48,455 nt of DNA from an uncultured delta proteobacterium (GTDB lineage Bacteria > Myxococcota_A > Polyangia > Polyangiales > Polyangiaceae). Below the pieces are notes generated by a model. That model worked only from the letters and a program-made list of their open reading frames with translations, was not told the DNA's origin and searched no databases. This document shows positions 26,623 through 33,243 of this stretch, one piece after another. The stretch spans positions 1-48,455 of the forward strand of contig CAIVJW010000447.1 of NCBI GenBank assembly GCA_903906315.1, in the 5' to 3' direction. How positions within the stretch are numbered: position 1 is the stretch's first letter; each line of letters opens with the position of its first letter. The position numbers and the translations under genes are program-made.

Positions 26623-27831
26623 TCACAGCGTGACGAACCCGCGCTGCGGCCGGGCGTACACGTAACCCTGCTGGTACTCGCAGCCGATCTCGCCGAGCGT
26701 GCGGCACTCGGCCTCGGTCTCGACGCCCTCGGCGACCACCTCGACCCCGATCTCGTGGCAGAGCGTCGCCATCGCGCGCACGACGCTGTGGCGCACCGGG
26801 TCGGTGTCGACGCCCCGGACGAGCGCCATGTCGAGCTTCACGATCGACGGCCGGAGCTGCGCGAAGGCGTTCAGCCCCGCGTAGCCCGACCCGAGGTCGT
26901 CGACCGCGATGCGGTAGCCGGCCGCGCGCAGCGAGTCGATGCGGCTGCCGAGCTCCGGGACCTGCTCGAGCGTCTCGCGCTCGGTCACCTCGAGCACGAT
27001 CCGCGAGGCGAAGGCGCGCAGCGGGTTATCGTCCGAGTAGAGCGCGTCGTCGACGAGGTCCTGCGGGTGGAGGTTCACGTAGATGCGTGCGGTCGGCGGC
27101 GCCGCCGGGACGGCCTCGGCGATGCGCGAGCGGATGAGCGCGCTGAGCTCGCGCGTGCGCCCGAGGCGCTCGGCCGCGCCGATGAGCTCGCTCGCGGTGC
27201 CGAGGCTCGGCTCGTCGCTGCGGACGAGGGCCTCGTAGCCGAGGACCGCTCGGTCCTGCCAGTGCACGATGGGCTGGAACGCCATCCACACGAGGGGCAG
27301 CGCGCGGTCGAAGCAGGCCCCGATGGTCGAGAGATCGCCCGATCGGTCGCCCTCGCCTCCGAGGTGCTCGAACGCGGCGCGCTTCAGTCGGGCGAATCGG
27401 TGCAGCTGGACTGCGTGCGAGAGCACCTGCGCGAACGTGCGGACGTCGATGGGCTTGAGCAGGTACATCAGCGCCCCGTGCTCGACCGCGAGCCGCGCGC
27501 GCGCGTCGTCGGGCTGCCCCGTCAGCAGGATCACGGGCACGTCGGCGTTCTTCTCGCGGACCTTGCGGAGCAGCCCGAGGCCGTCGAGCCCGGGCATCGA
27601 GATGTCGGTGACGATCACGTCGAAGCCGCCGCCCACCGCCAGCTCCGCGCCCCGGACCCCGTCGGGCGCGACGACGACGTCGTATCCGGCGTGCTCGAGC
27701 AGGCGCTGCAGCGCGCGAAGCACCAGCGCCTCGTCGTCGACCACGAGCACGCGCGCCGGGCGCTCCTCCACCCCGAGCGGGCGTTGCAGCGCCATGTCGT
27801 ACCGTCCGACGCCCACCGCTTGCTGGCTCAT
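26623..27831 (-). CDS. Response regulator with EAL (c-di-GMP phosphodiesterase) output
   Basis: 402 residues. The receiver (about 27-140) has Asp76 in VTDISMPGLDG and Lys126 in LLKPI. The EAL domain (about 165-400) should hydrolyse cyclic di-GMP to pGpG. All catalytic and metal-binding positions I can place are kept: Glu200 in YEALVR, Asn253 in VNLHP, Glu281 in LEVTER, Asp311-Asp312 in DDLGSGYAGL, Lys332 in VKLD, Glu368 in AEGVET and Gln388 in YQQGY. So it is likely an active, phosphorylation-controlled phosphodiesterase. The ATG at 27831 is preferred (GGAGAAG about 7 nt upstream) over a GTG seven codons earlier. It lies between two kinase genes on the same strand. Confidence 0.95.
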   Translation of the reverse strand: MSQQAVGVGRYDMALQRPLGVEERPARVLVVDDEALVLRALQRLLEHAGYDVVVAPDGVRGAELAVGGGFDVIVTDISMPGLDGLGLLRKVREKNADVPVILLTGQPDDARARLAVEHGALMYLLKPIDVRTFAQVLSHAVQLHRFARLKRAAFEHLGGEGDRSGDLSTIGACFDRALPLVWMAFQPIVHWQDRAVLGYEALVRSDEPSLGTASELIGAAERLGRTRELSALIRSRIAEAVPAAPPTARIYVNLHPQDLVDDALYSDDNPLRAFASRIVLEVTERETLEQVPELGSRIDSLRAAGYRIAVDDLGSGYAGLNAFAQLRPSIVKLDMALVRGVDTDPVRHSVVRAMATLCHEIGVEVVAEGVETEAECRTLGEIGCEYQQGYVYARPQRGFVTL

Positions 27832-27916
27832 GCTGGCTTCTCCACGGATCACAATAGCTCACGCGAAGCGTCGGCACGGCCGTTCGCGATGCGGGCCCGC
27901 TCGGCGGCGCGTCGCG

Positions 27917-29602
27917 TCAGGCGACGTACCTGCCGAGCACGCGGAAGATCTCGGCGAACGAGATCGGCTTCTTCACGGTGGTGCACGCGCCCGCGCCGAG
28001 GCACGTCGCGTCGGCGGCGGCCCGCCCCGGCGACGTCAGCGCCACGACCGGCAGAGCGCTCGTCGCCGGCGTCGCGCGCAGCGCGCGGATCGTCGCGAGG
28101 CTCTGCTCCTCGTTGTCACCGACGTCGACCAGCACGACGTCCGCGCCCATGGCCATGGCCTGCTCGACGGTGTCGAGCGTGTCTCGCGACGACCCCATGA
28201 CGAGGCCGTTCGCCTCGAAGACGTCGCGCATCAGCGACGCCACGGTCTCGTTGTCGTCCGCGAGCAGGATGCGCAGCCCCGGGCGAAGGCCGCGCGAGGT
28301 GGGCGGGGGGATCGTCGTCGCGCGCGGGTGGAGGTCGCTCGTGATCCCGATCGGCAGCGTCACGTCGAAGCGGCTGCCGTGGCCGAGGCGGCTCGAGACC
28401 GACACGCGGCCGCCGTGCAGCTCGACGAGGCGCGACACGATCGCGAGCCCGAGGCCCGTGCCCTCGTGGCGCCGCGAGAGCGATCCGTCGACCTGGAAGA
28501 ACGGCTCGAACAGCCGCAGCTGGTCCTCGGGTGCGATGCCGCCTCCGGTGTCGACGACCGAGATCGTGACCTCGCCGAACACCGGGCTGCCGCGGACCTC
28601 GAGCGAGACGGCGCCGCCGGGCTCGGTGAACTTGACGGCGTTCGAGAGCAGGTGGCCGATGGTCTCGAGCAGCCGCGCGCGGTCGGCCGAGATGGCGCGC
28701 ACGGACCGATCGGTGGTGAGCTGGATGCGGAGGCGGCGCCGCTTCGCCCGCTCCGAGACGCTGGCGAGCGCGATCTCGCAGAGCTCGTCGAGGTCGACCG
28801 TGTCGAACGCGAGCTCCTCGGTGCTCGCCTCGAGGCCGGCGAAGTGCAGGATGTCGTTTATCAGCTCGAGCAGGTGCCGGCCGCTCTCGACGACCGTCTG
28901 GAGCCGAGCGCTCTGGTCGCGCTCGAGCGGGCCGTGGGCGCCGTCGAGCAGGCCCTCGGTGATCCCCAGCACCGCGTTGAGCGGCGTGCGAAGCTCGTGG
29001 CTCATGTTCGCGACGAACTCGTCGCGCACGGCGAGCACGCGCCGGAGCTCCTGGTTCGTCATCACGAGCGCCTCGGCCTGGTGCTCGAGGCGCCGAAGCA
29101 TCCCCGCGCGCTCGGTGACGTCGCGCACCAGGGTCACGAGGCAGCGCTCCCCGTCGATCTCGAGGCACGACGACCGCAGCTCGGCGTCGAAGGTCGTGCC
29201 GTCGCGGCGACGCAGCTCGACCTGGTGCGCCGAGACGTGGCCCGGCGGGAGTGAAGCGCGGACGGAGTCGTACGAGGGCGACACGTCCCCGATGACGAGC
29301 TCGCTCATGCGCAGGCCGATGAGATCGACCTCCTCGATCCCCAGCATCGCGAGCGCGCTCGGGTTCGCCTCGGCGATGCGGCCGTCGAAGCCGTGCACCA
29401 GCACGCCGTCGGCCGCGGTCTCCAGGATCCGCCTCGCGCGATCGCCCAGCGCGAGCCGCAGGCGGAGCGCCGGGTCGATCGCGGCCTCGTCGCGTGCGCG
29501 AGAGGAGACGGTCACCTGCGTGATCTCCCGGTGCGCGTGCAGGGCGGTTTGCGAGGGCGATGCCATGGTGGGTCGGAGGTCACGAGGCCGGCGCCGGCTC
29601 AT
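27917..29602 (-). CDS. Soluble hybrid histidine kinase: PAS-HisKA-HATPase-REC
   Basis: 561 residues. PAS about 55-165 (ILETAADGVLVHGFDGRIAEAN, then LVRDVTER). HisKA has His202 in MSHELRTPLNAVLG; HATPase_c shows HLLSNAVKF, DTGGGI and GTGLGLAIVSRL; a linker leads to a C-terminal receiver (about 443-561). The receiver keeps DD (449-450), Asp493, Thr523 and a Lys-Lys-Pro, but the usual MPxMDG after the acceptor Asp is replaced by VGDNEEQ, so its surface is unusual. A second ATG at 29566 (MASPSQ) is an alternative start; neither has a clear ribosome site. Divergent from the receiver-kinase gene at 29715 and 86 bp upstream of the EAL gene. Confidence 0.9.
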   Translation of the reverse strand: MSRRRPRDLRPTMASPSQTALHAHREITQVTVSSRARDEAAIDPALRLRLALGDRARRILETAADGVLVHGFDGRIAEANPSALAMLGIEEVDLIGLRMSELVIGDVSPSYDSVRASLPPGHVSAHQVELRRRDGTTFDAELRSSCLEIDGERCLVTLVRDVTERAGMLRRLEHQAEALVMTNQELRRVLAVRDEFVANMSHELRTPLNAVLGITEGLLDGAHGPLERDQSARLQTVVESGRHLLELINDILHFAGLEASTEELAFDTVDLDELCEIALASVSERAKRRRLRIQLTTDRSVRAISADRARLLETIGHLLSNAVKFTEPGGAVSLEVRGSPVFGEVTISVVDTGGGIAPEDQLRLFEPFFQVDGSLSRRHEGTGLGLAIVSRLVELHGGRVSVSSRLGHGSRFDVTLPIGITSDLHPRATTIPPPTSRGLRPGLRILLADDNETVASLMRDVFEANGLVMGSSRDTLDTVEQAMAMGADVVLVDVGDNEEQSLATIRALRATPATSALPVVALTSPGRAAADATCLGAGACTTVKKPISFAEIFRVLGRYVA

Positions 29603-29634
29603 CGCGCGCGGAAATCTCGTGCTCCGGATCGGTC

Positions 29635-29648
29635 AACGGTTCACCGTT
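29635..29648. promoter_or_regulatory. Inverted repeat in divergent promoter region
   Basis: AACGGT-TC-ACCGTT, a perfect 6-bp dyad with a 2-bp centre. It lies 33 bp upstream of the start of the kinase at 27917-29602 and 31 bp upstream of the -35 box of the receiver-kinase gene, so it is well placed to control either. Confidence 0.35.
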
Positions 29649-29678
29649 CGCTCTGCTTGAGGGGCCCCCGCGTTCTCT

Positions 29679-29706
29679 TTGACCGCCGCACAATCGAGGC
29701 TATATG
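29679..29706 (+). promoter_or_regulatory. Sigma-70-type promoter for a likely leaderless mRNA
   Basis: TTGACC (29679-29684), 16-bp spacer, TATATG (29701-29706), one of the best -35/-10 pairs in the window. Transcription should start about 29712-29714, one to three bases before the ATG at 29715, leaving no room for a ribosome site. Confidence 0.6.
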
Positions 29707-29714
29707 CCCCAGAC

Positions 29715-30848
29715 ATGTTGCCGCCCCCCCAAGCGCTTCCTCACGTCCTCGTCGTCGACGACAACGAGGCTTCGCGTGAGACGCTCGGCGTCATCCTCGC
29801 GCGCGAGCCCGTGGTCGTACACTCGGTCGACTGCGGGCCGGCCGCGATCGCGTACGCCTCCGCTCACCCCGTCGACGTGATGCTGCTCGACGTGATGATG
29901 CCCGGCATGGACGGCTTCGAGGTCTGCCGCCGCTTCAAGGCCGACCCCGCGCTCGCGCCGATCCCGATCATCCTCGTCACCGCGCTCGACTCGACGAAGG
30001 ACATGCTCCGCGGCCTCGAGTCCGGCGCCGAGGAGTTCGTGTCCAAGCCGGTGAACCGCATGGAGCTGCGCGCCCGCGTGCGCTCGATGCTCCGCATGAA
30101 GCAGCACTACGACGAGGCGCGCGCGCTCGCCGCGGACCTCACCCGGCTCGAGCACAAGCGCCAGGCGCTCACGTCATTCCTGGTTCACGACCTCAAGAAC
30201 CCGCTCGCCGTCATCCAGATGAGCGCCGAGTACTGCCTTGCCGTAGCGGGCGTGAGCGCGCCGATCCGCTCTGCGGTCGCGGACATCTCGCAGGCCGTGG
30301 CGACCCTGGACCGCATGGTCCTCGACATGCTCGACGTGGCGCGCAGCGAGGAGTCGGGGCTCCCCGTTCACCGCGAGCGCGTGGACCTGGGGGCGCTCGC
30401 GACCGAGGTCGTTGCCTCGATGGGACCGCTCGCGGTCGACCGCCAGATCGAGCTCGGCGTTCTCAACCGCGTGACCACGCCCGTTCTCGTTGACCGCGAG
30501 CTGATGCGACGAGTGGTCGCCAACCTGCTCGACAACGCCGTCAAGTACGCGCCACCCGGATCCGAGGTTCGCGTGGAGGTCGAGGTCGGAGAGGACGCGA
30601 TCGACCTTCGCGTGCGCGACTCCGGCAAGGGCATCGCGCTCGAGGTGCGCGAGCACGTGTTCGACCGGTACGCGCGCGCCGAGCCCGTCGGCGACAAGAA
30701 CCGGGGCCACAGCCGCGGCCTCGGGCTGGCGTACTGTCGCATTGCGGCGGAGGCTCACGGGGGGCGCATCTGGATCGAGGACAACGAGCCCACCGGCGCG
30801 GTGTTCTGCGTCGCGCTGCCGCTCGTTGCGGAGCCCGGGCCAACGTGA
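29715..30848 (+). CDS. Receiver-histidine kinase (REC-HisKA-HATPase)
   Basis: 377 residues, receiver first and kinase second. Receiver about 8-125: DD (15-16), Asp59 in LLDVMMPGMDG, Thr89, Lys111 in VSKPV. The HisKA motif is the variant HDLKNPL with His158, followed by HATPase_c (NLLDNAVKY, DSGKGI, RGLGLAYCR). Proteins of this shape receive phosphate from another kinase or sensor and then phosphorylate a further partner, so this may be an intermediate in a relay among the neighbouring kinases (inference). The ATG at 29715 fits the domain start and a predicted leaderless transcript; a TTG at 29679 is part of the -35 box. Its 3' half lies opposite the long tail of the sigma-factor frame. Confidence 0.9.
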   Translation: MLPPPQALPHVLVVDDNEASRETLGVILAREPVVVHSVDCGPAAIAYASAHPVDVMLLDVMMPGMDGFEVCRRFKADPALAPIPIILVTALDSTKDMLRGLESGAEEFVSKPVNRMELRARVRSMLRMKQHYDEARALAADLTRLEHKRQALTSFLVHDLKNPLAVIQMSAEYCLAVAGVSAPIRSAVADISQAVATLDRMVLDMLDVARSEESGLPVHRERVDLGALATEVVASMGPLAVDRQIELGVLNRVTTPVLVDRELMRRVVANLLDNAVKYAPPGSEVRVEVEVGEDAIDLRVRDSGKGIALEVREHVFDRYARAEPVGDKNRGHSRGLGLAYCRIAAEAHGGRIWIEDNEPTGAVFCVALPLVAEPGPT

Positions 30849-31580
30849 CGCCGCCGCGGGGGCGCCGGCTCGCGCCGCCCTCGCCTGCTGAACACGCGGC
30901 GTCTTCGACAGGTGGGCTCGCAGGCGCGTGATCGCCTCGCCGTGCAGCTGGCAGACGCGAGACTCCGTGACGCCCAGCTCGTCGCCGATCGCCCGCAGCG
31001 TGTCGCCCTCCTCGTGGTGGCGCGAGATCACGCGCGCGAGGCGCGGGGGCAGGGCCGCGATCGCATCGGCCAGCACGCCGCGCGCCTCGGCGGCGCCGAG
31101 CACCTCGTCGGCGGGCAGTCCCGATCCCTCGGCGGGCGCGCACGGCTCGGCGACGTCCTCGATGCTCGGCGAGCTGCGCAGCTCGGCGTCCGCGAGGACC
31201 TCGTAGTAAGCGGCGAGCGCCAGGCCGGCTTCGCTCGCGACCTCGTCGTCCTGCGCGTGGCGGCCGAGGCGGGCCTCGACGTGCTGGCGGGCCCGGTCGA
31301 TGCGGCGCACGCGCGCCCGCAGGCGGCGGCGCAGCGGATCGGCCGCGCGGACCTCGTCGAGCATCCGGCCCTCGATGCAGCGCGACGCATAGGCCGCGAA
31401 CCCCGTCTCGCTGCCGTCGAAGCCGCGATGGGCGTGGAGCAGGCCGAGGTAGCCCGCGCTCACGAGGTCGTCGACGCTCACCCTCCCGGGCATGCGCCGC
31501 GCGATCTTGGCGGCGAGCGCGCGCACGGTCGGGGTCATCCGGAGGGCCAGGTCGTTGGACAGGGGAGGGCTCGAGGGCAT
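30174..31580 (-). CDS. FliA/sigma-28-like RNA polymerase sigma factor with antisense tail
   Basis: The first 224 residues (down to about 30909) form a group 3 sigma-70 family factor. Region 2 is VSVDDLVSAGYLGLLHAHRGFD...FAAYASRCIEGRMLDEVR, much like FliA/WhiG. Region 3 is about 83-130. Region 4 is ALPPRLARVISRHHEEGDTLRAIGDELGVTESRVCQLHGEAITRLRAHL. After that the frame has no stop until 30174, giving 468 residues in all. The last 225 codons lie antisense to the receiver-kinase gene and read like the shadow of that gene (His/Arg/Glu-rich), so the tail is doubtful. The ATG at 31580 fits a predicted sigma-54 start site about 18 nt upstream. An upstream TTG falls inside that promoter. Target genes are unknown; motility genes are not seen here. 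Confidence 0.8.
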   Translation of the reverse strand: MPSSPPLSNDLALRMTPTVRALAAKIARRMPGRVSVDDLVSAGYLGLLHAHRGFDGSETGFAAYASRCIEGRMLDEVRAADPLRRRLRARVRRIDRARQHVEARLGRHAQDDEVASEAGLALAAYYEVLADAELRSSPSIEDVAEPCAPAEGSGLPADEVLGAAEARGVLADAIAALPPRLARVISRHHEEGDTLRAIGDELGVTESRVCQLHGEAITRLRAHLSKTPRVQQARAARAGAPAAASRWPGLRNERQRDAEHRAGGLVVLDPDAPPVSLRRNATVRQPEAAAVAPVLVADGLGARVPVEHVLAHLERDALAGVAHAKVDRVLSDLDLHANLGSGWRVLDGVVEQVGDHSSHQLAVNENGRGHAVENAELDLAVDRERSHRGNDLGRERPQVHALAVNGEPRLLAARHVEHVEDHAVQGRHGLRDVRDRRADRRAHARYGKAVLGAHLDDGERVLEVVNQE

Positions 31581-31608
31581 TTTTTGAGGACTCTCGGTGG
31601 AGCCCCAA

Positions 31609-31624
31609 AGCAATGCCGGTGCCG
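31609..31624 (-). promoter_or_regulatory. Sigma-54 (-24/-12) promoter of the sigma-factor gene
   Basis: Read on the minus strand, CGGCACCGGCATTGCT matches the sigma-54 consensus TGGCACG-N4-TTGCT at 14 of 16 aligned positions counting the free spacer. It has the essential GG and GC at the correct spacing. The predicted start is about 31598, 18 nt before the ATG at 31580. Support also comes from the adjacent NtrC-type activator gene. Confidence 0.65.
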
Positions 31625-31642
31625 CCGAATTCGCGCCGCCAA

Positions 31643-31657
31643 GTATGCGGAACTACG
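31643..31657. promoter_or_regulatory. Proximal copy of a 15-bp element upstream of the sigma-54 promoter
   Basis: GTATGCGGAACTACG, centred about 52 bp upstream of the predicted start of the sigma-factor transcript. It matches the distal copy at 31702-31716 in 14 of 15 bases and has a weak GTA-N8-TAC symmetry. Candidate binding site for the NtrC-type regulator. Confidence 0.5.
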
Positions 31658-31701
31658 TGGCTTCGATGCGCACGTGGTGAGGCCGAGGGAGCGGGCTCCC
31701 G

Positions 31702-31716
31702 GTATGCGGGACTACG
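31702..31716. promoter_or_regulatory. Distal copy of the 15-bp element
   Basis: GTATGCGGGACTACG, centred about 111 bp upstream of the predicted start, a usual distance for sigma-54 enhancer sites. The two copies are 59 bp apart. The rest of the 271-bp gap between the regulator stop and the sigma gene start shows no other feature. Confidence 0.5.
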
Positions 31717-31851
31717 CTCCCTCCTCACGCTTGCGCGCCGCATGCCAGCCGCGCAGCCCCCGGCGCGCGGGTCGCCTGACCGGACGACCCCCGTGCGCGC
31801 GCCTCGAGCCTGCTGGCGCGGCGTCGCGCGCGACGGTCGCTGGAGCGCCGC

Positions 31852-33243
31852 CTACTCGTCGTCGCCGTCGATGCGCCGGAGCTTGGCCCGGAGCGTCTTC
31901 GGGTCGACCTTCAGGCGGCGCGCCAGCTCGGCGCGCGACCCGCTGCTGCGCTCGAGCAGGGCCGACAGCAGCGCCTGCTCCGCGCGGTCCGCGGCGATGG
32001 CGGCGACGGCCTTGAGGTCGATCTGGTCGGCGTCGAGGTCGACCTCGAGCTCGATCAGGAGCTTGCCCAGGCTGGCGGAGGCGGCGCCCGCGGCGGGGGG
32101 CGGCTGGCTTCGGCCGCGGACGGCGGCGGGCAGGTCGGCGTGCCGGAGCACGCGCTCGGCGGTCACGACGGCTGACTTGATGGCGTTTTCCAGCTCGCGC
32201 ACGTTGCCGGGCCACTGGTAGGCGCGGAGCTCGGCCAGCGCGGCGGCCTCGATGGTGCTCACGGCGCGCTCGAAGCGCTGCGCGTACTTCTGAAGGAAGT
32301 GGGTGGCGAGCAGATCGACGTCCCCGGCACGCACGCGCAGCGGCGGCACGGGGATCGTCGCCTCGCTGAGGCGGTAGTAGAGGTCGGCCCGGAACGCGCC
32401 GCGGCGGACCGCGTCGTGCAGATCGATGTTGGTCGCCGACACCACCCGGATGTCGAGCTTGATGGTGTCGCGGCCACCGACGCGCTCGAGCGTGCGCTCC
32501 TGAAGGACCCGCAGGAGCTTGGCCTGGATGGGGAGCGGGAGGTTGCCGATCTCGTCGAGGAAGAGGGTGCCGCCGTCGGCACGCTCGAAGTGGCCGATGC
32601 GCGCGGCCGTCGCGCCCGTGAAGGACCCCTTCTCGTGACCGAACAGCTCGCTCTCGATGAGGCTCTCGGTGAGGATGGAGCAGTCGACGGCGACGAACGG
32701 CGCCTCGCGGCGCTTGCTGCCGGCGTGCAGCGTGCGCGCGAGCAGCTCCTTGCCGGTGCCCGTCTCGCCCTGTAGCAGCACGTTGATGTCCGGCCGCGCG
32801 AACTGCCGGACGGTCGCCATCGTCTCGCGGAAGCGCGGCGACGATCCCACCATCACGGGGCCGTCCGTCGGGTCGGCGAACGCGCCGGGGAGCGCGCCGT
32901 TGACGGTGGCGATGAGCTTGGCCGCTTCGAGGGGCTTGGTGACGAAGTCGACGGCGCCGAGCTTGAACGCGTCGACGGCGGCCTCGACGCTGCCGCGGGC
33001 CGTCATCATTACGACCGGGACGCCCGGTGCGGCGTCGTGCACGAGGCGCTGCAGCACGTCGAGGCCGCTCACGTCCGACAGGTGCAGATCGAGGAGCACG
33101 AGGTCCGGGCGTGAAGCTCGGACGGCCTCGATCGCCTCGGCGCCCGAGCCGACGCCTCGGATGTCGTGACCGGCGGCCGCGAGGATGCGCTCGACGACGC
33201 GGCGCATCGAGGGCTCGTCGTCGACGACCAGGAGGTGAGCCAT
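31852..33243 (-). CDS. NtrC-family sigma-54-dependent response regulator
   Basis: 463 residues with three domains. Receiver 1-115 (Asp52 in LLDLHLSDVSG, Lys103 in VTKPL). AAA+ sigma-54 activator domain about 130-365, with Walker A GETGTGKE (159-166), the sigma-54-contact loop as GSFTGA (206-211) in place of the usual GAFTGA, Walker B GGTLFLDE (224-231) and NVREL (347-351). A C-terminal Fis-type helix-turn-helix follows (about 418-458, RAELARRLKVDPKTLRAKLRRI). It should activate sigma-54 promoters when phosphorylated. The next gene downstream is the sigma factor with a sigma-54-like promoter, the obvious candidate target. The ATG at 33243 begins the family N-terminus; no Shine-Dalgarno is visible. 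Confidence 0.95.
   Translation of the reverse strand: MAHLLVVDDEPSMRRVVERILAAAGHDIRGVGSGAEAIEAVRASRPDLVLLDLHLSDVSGLDVLQRLVHDAAPGVPVVMMTARGSVEAAVDAFKLGAVDFVTKPLEAAKLIATVNGALPGAFADPTDGPVMVGSSPRFRETMATVRQFARPDINVLLQGETGTGKELLARTLHAGSKRREAPFVAVDCSILTESLIESELFGHEKGSFTGATAARIGHFERADGGTLFLDEIGNLPLPIQAKLLRVLQERTLERVGGRDTIKLDIRVVSATNIDLHDAVRRGAFRADLYYRLSEATIPVPPLRVRAGDVDLLATHFLQKYAQRFERAVSTIEAAALAELRAYQWPGNVRELENAIKSAVVTAERVLRHADLPAAVRGRSQPPPAAGAASASLGKLLIELEVDLDADQIDLKAVAAIAADRAEQALLSALLERSSGSRAELARRLKVDPKTLRAKLRRIDGDDE

Follow-up and report, generated by a model that had tools for sequence, protein, structure and literature searches.

A sigma factor reading frame that continues antisense into a convergent receiver-kinase gene, most likely through a missing stop codon

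Why does the reading frame of a sigma factor gene continue, without a stop, into the kinase gene that faces it? We addressed this question in a 48,455-nucleotide stretch of one assembled contig (hereafter, the window), which has a G+C content of about 73%. A preliminary description of the locus had reported that the sigma frame stays open past sigma region 4 until position 30174, adding about 240 residues, and had offered two accounts of it: a real 3′ overlap with an unusual sigma tail, or a frameshift or sequence error that removed the true stop. We asked how the two frames lie on the DNA, how long such an open run tends to be in this genome, where homologous sigma genes end, and whether the tail resembles a protein. 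The features concerned are collected in Table 1.

Table 1. Positions in the window of the features discussed
Feature	Position	Strand	Evidence
Receiver-EAL protein, counterpart of the convergent neighbor in G003	26623..27852	-	Response_reg and EAL in both
Convergent receiver-HisKA-HATPase_c protein	29679..30848	+	Pfam; 389 aa from TTG 29679, 377 aa from ATG 29715
Antisense sigma/kinase overlap, 225 codons in exact codon register	30174..30848	-	ORF coordinates
19 sigma codons from end of region 4 homology to end of kinase gene	30849..30905	-	Stop-free in all minus-strand frames
FliA/WhiG-like sigma-70 family sigma factor core, regions 2, 3, and 4	30906..31580	-	Pfam, NCBIfam
NtrC-type response regulator upstream of sigma gene, synteny marker	31852..33243	-	Sigma54_activat, 227.9 bits

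Geometry and expected length of the overlap

The sigma open reading frame spans 31613..30174 on the minus strand and encodes 468 aa from an ATG at 31580 (with TTG 31613 as a possible alternative start) to a TGA at 30176-30174. Like the members of the FliA/WhiG family, the predicted protein has regions 2 and 4 and shows similarity across almost the whole core, although its scores lie under the curated cut-offs of that family. Pfam placed Sigma70_r4 (44.2 bits) and Sigma70_r2 (38 bits) over their cut-offs and Sigma70_r3 (23.3 bits) under its cut-off of 25.3. The NCBIfam sigma70-ECF superfamily model was passed at 81.3 bits, and the FliA/WhiG models, with the tail included in scoring, gave 148-155 bits, below their curated cut-offs (TIGR02479, 147.7 vs. 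189.6 bits; NF005413, 155.3 vs. 201 bits). Sigma homology stays in frame down to ~30903, where region 4 ends, and ~243 residues follow it. The 19-codon spacer that leads from there to the kinase gene has a codon score of about zero.

The convergent kinase gene, which ends in a TGA at 30846-30848, has a normal make-up: Response_reg (97.6 bits), HisKA (35 bits), and HATPase_c (91.7 bits) are complete and over their cut-offs, and the best relative aligns to residues 10-372 of 377. The 675-bp overlap takes up 225 of the 390 codons in the longer kinase frame and lies over the histidine kinase part of the protein. The codons of the two frames coincide exactly: read in the sigma frame, the kinase stop TGA becomes TCA (Ser), and the sole TCA codon of the kinase gene, at 30174, is the sigma stop. 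The ORF coordinates thus confirm the long open frame of the preliminary description, and of its two accounts the first, a real 3′ overlap with an unusual tail, holds for the assembled sequence. Kinase codon usage was less typical within the overlap than outside it (z of −2.3 vs. +0.6), and 7 of 132 other genes had a 3′ part as atypical. This is the direction expected from dual coding; it is a weak pointer, as the history of the gene could produce it too.

A stop in the in-register antisense frame requires TTA, CTA, or TCA in the sense frame. Across 153 genes from ~305 kb of this genome, the window among them (genes called by a codon-usage script rather than taken from curated annotation), these three codons accounted for 90 of 73,501 codons. 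Exact register with the kinase gene, together with the rarity of these codons in the genome, is therefore what keeps the frame open. Of the called genes, 133 (the kinase among them) are 225 codons or longer; counted from the 3′ end, the in-register antisense frame is open for 224 codons or more in 116 of them, whereas the other two antisense phases were open that far in just 11 and 4 of the 133. With the kinase protein held fixed and its codons drawn at genome usage, the probability of the open run was 0.77.

If the stop were lost, an extension of at least 225 codons would result in 51 of 145 sampled genes. The same holds for 16 of the 38 that have a convergent neighbor no more than 300 bp away, and for 20 of the 74 homologous sigma loci for which the second stop was known. 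Long ORFs opposite named genes were frequent in the same region, and 5 of 34 convergent neighbor pairs overlapped by at least 60 bp under a relaxed gene caller (151, 675, 1524, 2313, and 3350 bp), although the last three of these resemble nested calls. A stricter gene-calling run omitted the sigma ORF, by our reading owing to its overlap rule. In this genome, 675 bp is an ordinary length for a gene that has lost its stop and meets its neighbor in this register.

Published surveys describe overlaps of this kind. In the classification given in PMC2478687 (BMC Genomics 2008), category iii comprises convergent overlaps that arise as 3′-end extensions from the loss of a stop codon. Of 178 convergent overlaps longer than 60 bp in that account, 124 belonged to this class, and the other 54 may be real, mostly kept in very close species only. 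Our case shares with category iii a gene that is longer than its orthologs at the 3′ end only and that enters a normal convergent neighbor; its 675 bp lie far above the 60-bp threshold, which high G+C and exact register explain. PMC4161906, where it treats convergent overlaps, likewise holds that they need movement of a stop to arise. The dependence of frame 0 antisense stops on CTA, TTA, or TCA is set out in PMC11266595 for frame 0 antisense ORFs, which resemble ours in their exact codon register and their reliance on three rare codons. Those ORFs stand alone, whereas the antisense frame in the window continues the frame of a conserved, genuine gene.

Sigma gene ends and neighborhoods in related genomes

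Homologous sigma genes ended much earlier. Across 76 distinct homologous loci, the end fell a median of 11 residues after region 4 and at most 105, compared with 243 in the window, and only 2 of the 76 ended at least 40 residues past region 4. All 76 terminate earlier than the window sigma, which is thus longer at its 3′ end only and carries some 140 or more residues beyond any of them. These loci came from 77 tried (L002-L030, L032, L033-L035, and further stretches, with duplicates removed and paralogs from the same genome included), of which L050 gave no match and was dropped; weaker homologs without a fetched locus were left out. A scan of genome contigs for near relatives yielded two loci, and L031 was omitted as a duplicate of L006, with which it shared tail and identity. 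No relative closer than ~45% identity to the window sigma, and no genus mate, was found in our searches of relatives' genomes. Relative to these 76 loci, and judged from a single assembly of the window, the missing native stop appears to be the only feature of the locus that exceeds chance. The longest tail among the other loci, 105 residues after region 4, belongs to a sigma homolog in G086 (L034 1486-2502), and it indicates that short sigma ends are not absolute.

One relative, G003, contains the orthologous locus. The NtrC-type regulator upstream of the window sigma gene is 58% identical to a protein encoded at G003:C123:29422-30840, which lies directly upstream of the G003 sigma gene, as in the window. 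This syntenic sigma ortholog (L051 8213-8995, minus strand) has all sigma regions over cut-off, is 43% identical to the window sigma, and stops after 260 aa; the two tails do not align. Its 3′ side holds a spacer of ~400 bp and then a convergent receiver-EAL gene (L051 6561-7811), and no receiver-kinase gene lies between the two in G003. The counterpart of that receiver-EAL gene is present in the window (52% identity of its residues 27-406 to L051 6654-7793), and between it and the sigma gene the window holds a hybrid kinase gene (27917-29602) together with the receiver-kinase gene. The neighborhood of the sigma gene here therefore differs from the orthologous one. Strong matches to the NtrC-type protein occurred in three relatives, with the sigma gene beside it only in G003; the 4.4-kb loci of the other two (L132 in G024 and L133 in G061) contained no sigma match.

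The kinase gene gave a similar picture when followed through the relatives. Strong kinase matches (E ≤ 1e-60) were present in 18 relatives, 16 of which also had a sigma match (G015 and G016 had none), and the two lay side by side in none of the 16, in a comparison limited to strong kinase matches and including several fragmented assemblies. In these 16 the kinase match was on a different contig from the sigma matches, except in G019, where the same contig carried a sigma match at a distance of over 1.7 Mb. It follows that the convergent neighbor is new to the sigma gene here or has been lost in the others.

In some relatives, less similar kinase genes do follow sigma in the same orientation. 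Kinase-domain-like stretches in this arrangement were seen at L055 5420-6157, L053 2007-1327, and L139 7903-8559, and further ones at L035 3047-3631, L052 8352-8741, and L054 3905-3636. They could represent a recurring pairing or chance in kinase-rich genomes.

The tail and the origin of the missing stop

Little in the tail resembles a folded protein. No Pfam family matched it at E ≤ 0.1, and a PDB search with the tail returned one chance-level match (E of 0.55). AlphaFold2 gave residues 239-468 pLDDT values under 50, residue 441 excepted, and the sigma core block means of 68-94 for the most part, with a weak stretch at 136-159. The underlying alignment had two partners only, neither covering the tail, so the low tail score is weak evidence. 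ECF sigma factors with functional C-terminal extensions, such as SigG1 with its SnoaL_2 domain (described among such factors in PMC7730460), likewise consist of a core plus an extension; in the SigG1 type the extension is a recognizable domain, whereas the window tail has none.

When we searched for the tail across 108 genomes of the family, 78 gave matches, its own genome included. At each of the 14 relative loci that we fetched, the matching stretch was antisense to a kinase, in the same register, and in 5 of the 14 it contained an internal stop. With a kinase match opposite and, in those five, internal stops within, these tail-like stretches in relatives mirror kinase genes. As a protein, the tail was carried by none of the 76 homologous sigma loci, no close relative being among them. 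Its antisense codon score was slightly above the mean of resampled sequences, and 239 of 2,000 recodings scored at least as high, so this weakly positive score is explained by the kinase protein alone. The preliminary description's impression that the tail is an antisense shadow was therefore borne out.

Our preferred explanation, to which we assign a probability of roughly three in four, is a lineage-specific loss of the stop codon in a changed neighborhood, giving the sigma factor a passive C-terminal extension. We infer the order of events, the production of the long protein, and the neutrality of its tail as follows. The sigma gene would have lost its own stop in this lineage, probably as its 3′ neighborhood changed and the receiver-kinase gene came to lie, convergently, ~57 bp past the end of region 4. 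Translation would then continue to the first in-frame stop, 225 codons into the kinase gene, and would yield a functional sigma core followed by ~240 unstructured residues whose sequence is set by that of the kinase. Such a tail could be tolerated, probably without a job of its own. The feature is thus most likely an ordinary long convergent overlap, of the kind that a missing stop produces at high G+C.

The main rival to stop loss is an error in the assembly. A wrongly called base, or an unresolved mixture of strains, could hide a stop near 30849-30905, in which case the real sigma factor would have about 235-260 aa. We regard this as improbable but worth serious consideration: every one of the matched homologous loci ends far earlier than the window sigma, a single substitution would turn 4 of the 19 spacer codons into a stop, and long convergent overlaps are assigned largely to 3′ extensions from lost stops in the PMC2478687 survey. 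Either a sequence error or a real mutation could lie behind the overlap in the window. An insertion or deletion, however, is ruled out as the source, as none of the three minus-strand frames contains a stop from 30998 to 30758. The preliminary description had supposed that a frameshift removed the stop near 30850-30910. Because sigma homology does not leave its frame before region 4 ends, any frameshift would have to come after ~30903, and past that point the other two minus frames meet their next stops only at 30757 and 30543. With no stop nearby for an indel to restore, it would merely swap one antisense tail for another, and we rejected the frameshift. The broader suggestion of a sequence error survives in part: a single substitution is possible, but the near-stop codons in the spacer are no evidence that one occurred. 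Substitution errors that hit exactly a stop codon are also a rare type of error, which counts against this rival. Comparison with orthologs, from which an early stop restorable by a single-base correction had been envisaged, gave a divided result. Homologs do end soon after region 4, yet no minor change to the sequence visibly brings back the end seen in the ortholog; the ortholog continues for 26 residues past the one aligned to 30905-30903, and the same distance, base for base, would end inside the kinase gene and not in the spacer.

Two functional readings of the overlap are less probable than an assembly error. The tail could be a selected, overprinted C-terminal sigma module, antisense to the kinase and coupling both regulators. 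The slightly atypical kinase codons in the overlap and the slightly raised antisense codon score lean in its direction. Against it stand the absence of the tail from the homologous loci, the want of any Pfam domain, more than chance-level structural match, or confident model, and the kinase-antisense nature of its counterparts at the 14 relative loci fetched, 5 of them with internal stops. We consider such a module very unlikely, and hold at a shade lower still the fuller claim that the sigma factor gained a functional module of ~240 residues by in-register overprinting, with two regulators sharing one piece of DNA. It is equally hard to credit that convergent transcription is the purpose of the arrangement, the sigma and kinase mRNAs controlling each other as antisense RNAs. 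No intrinsic-terminator-like site was found on either strand of 29500-32000, so the transcripts may overlap; yet few such sites would be expected anyway (mean of 0.4 in shuffled sequence), the 73-nt spacer folds no better than its shuffles (z of 0.27), and the failure to find the sigma-kinase pair adjacent in relatives leaves a long-kept regulatory function without support. A terminator or structured RNA in the spacer was rejected as a candidate, as none rose above shuffles.

The locus offers a worked example of how, at ~73% G+C, the loss of a stop beside a convergent gene would often lead to a very long antisense-coded tail. Tails of this sort should not be annotated as domains. Proof that this one is produced and retained would make it a recent example of a regulatory protein affected by overprinting.

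Sequence upstream of the sigma gene

The region preceding the sigma gene contains two copies of a 14-base motif, GTATGCGGRACTAC, with GTA...TAC ends, at 31643-31656 and 31702-31715, 59 bp apart. In the 8.79-Mb genome, GTATGCGGRACTAC had two exact matches in forward orientation, none in reverse, and none for the reversed-pattern control, the pattern having been picked after its two copies were seen. A local regulator, for instance the neighboring NtrC-type protein, may bind at the two sites. An inverted repeat at 31685-31723, with 17-nt arms that are 82% complementary and 5 nt apart, overlaps the second copy. Closer to the gene, an A run on the minus strand leads into the ATG (31580-31578): the plus strand reads six T at 31580-31585, the last of which pairs with the A of the ATG.
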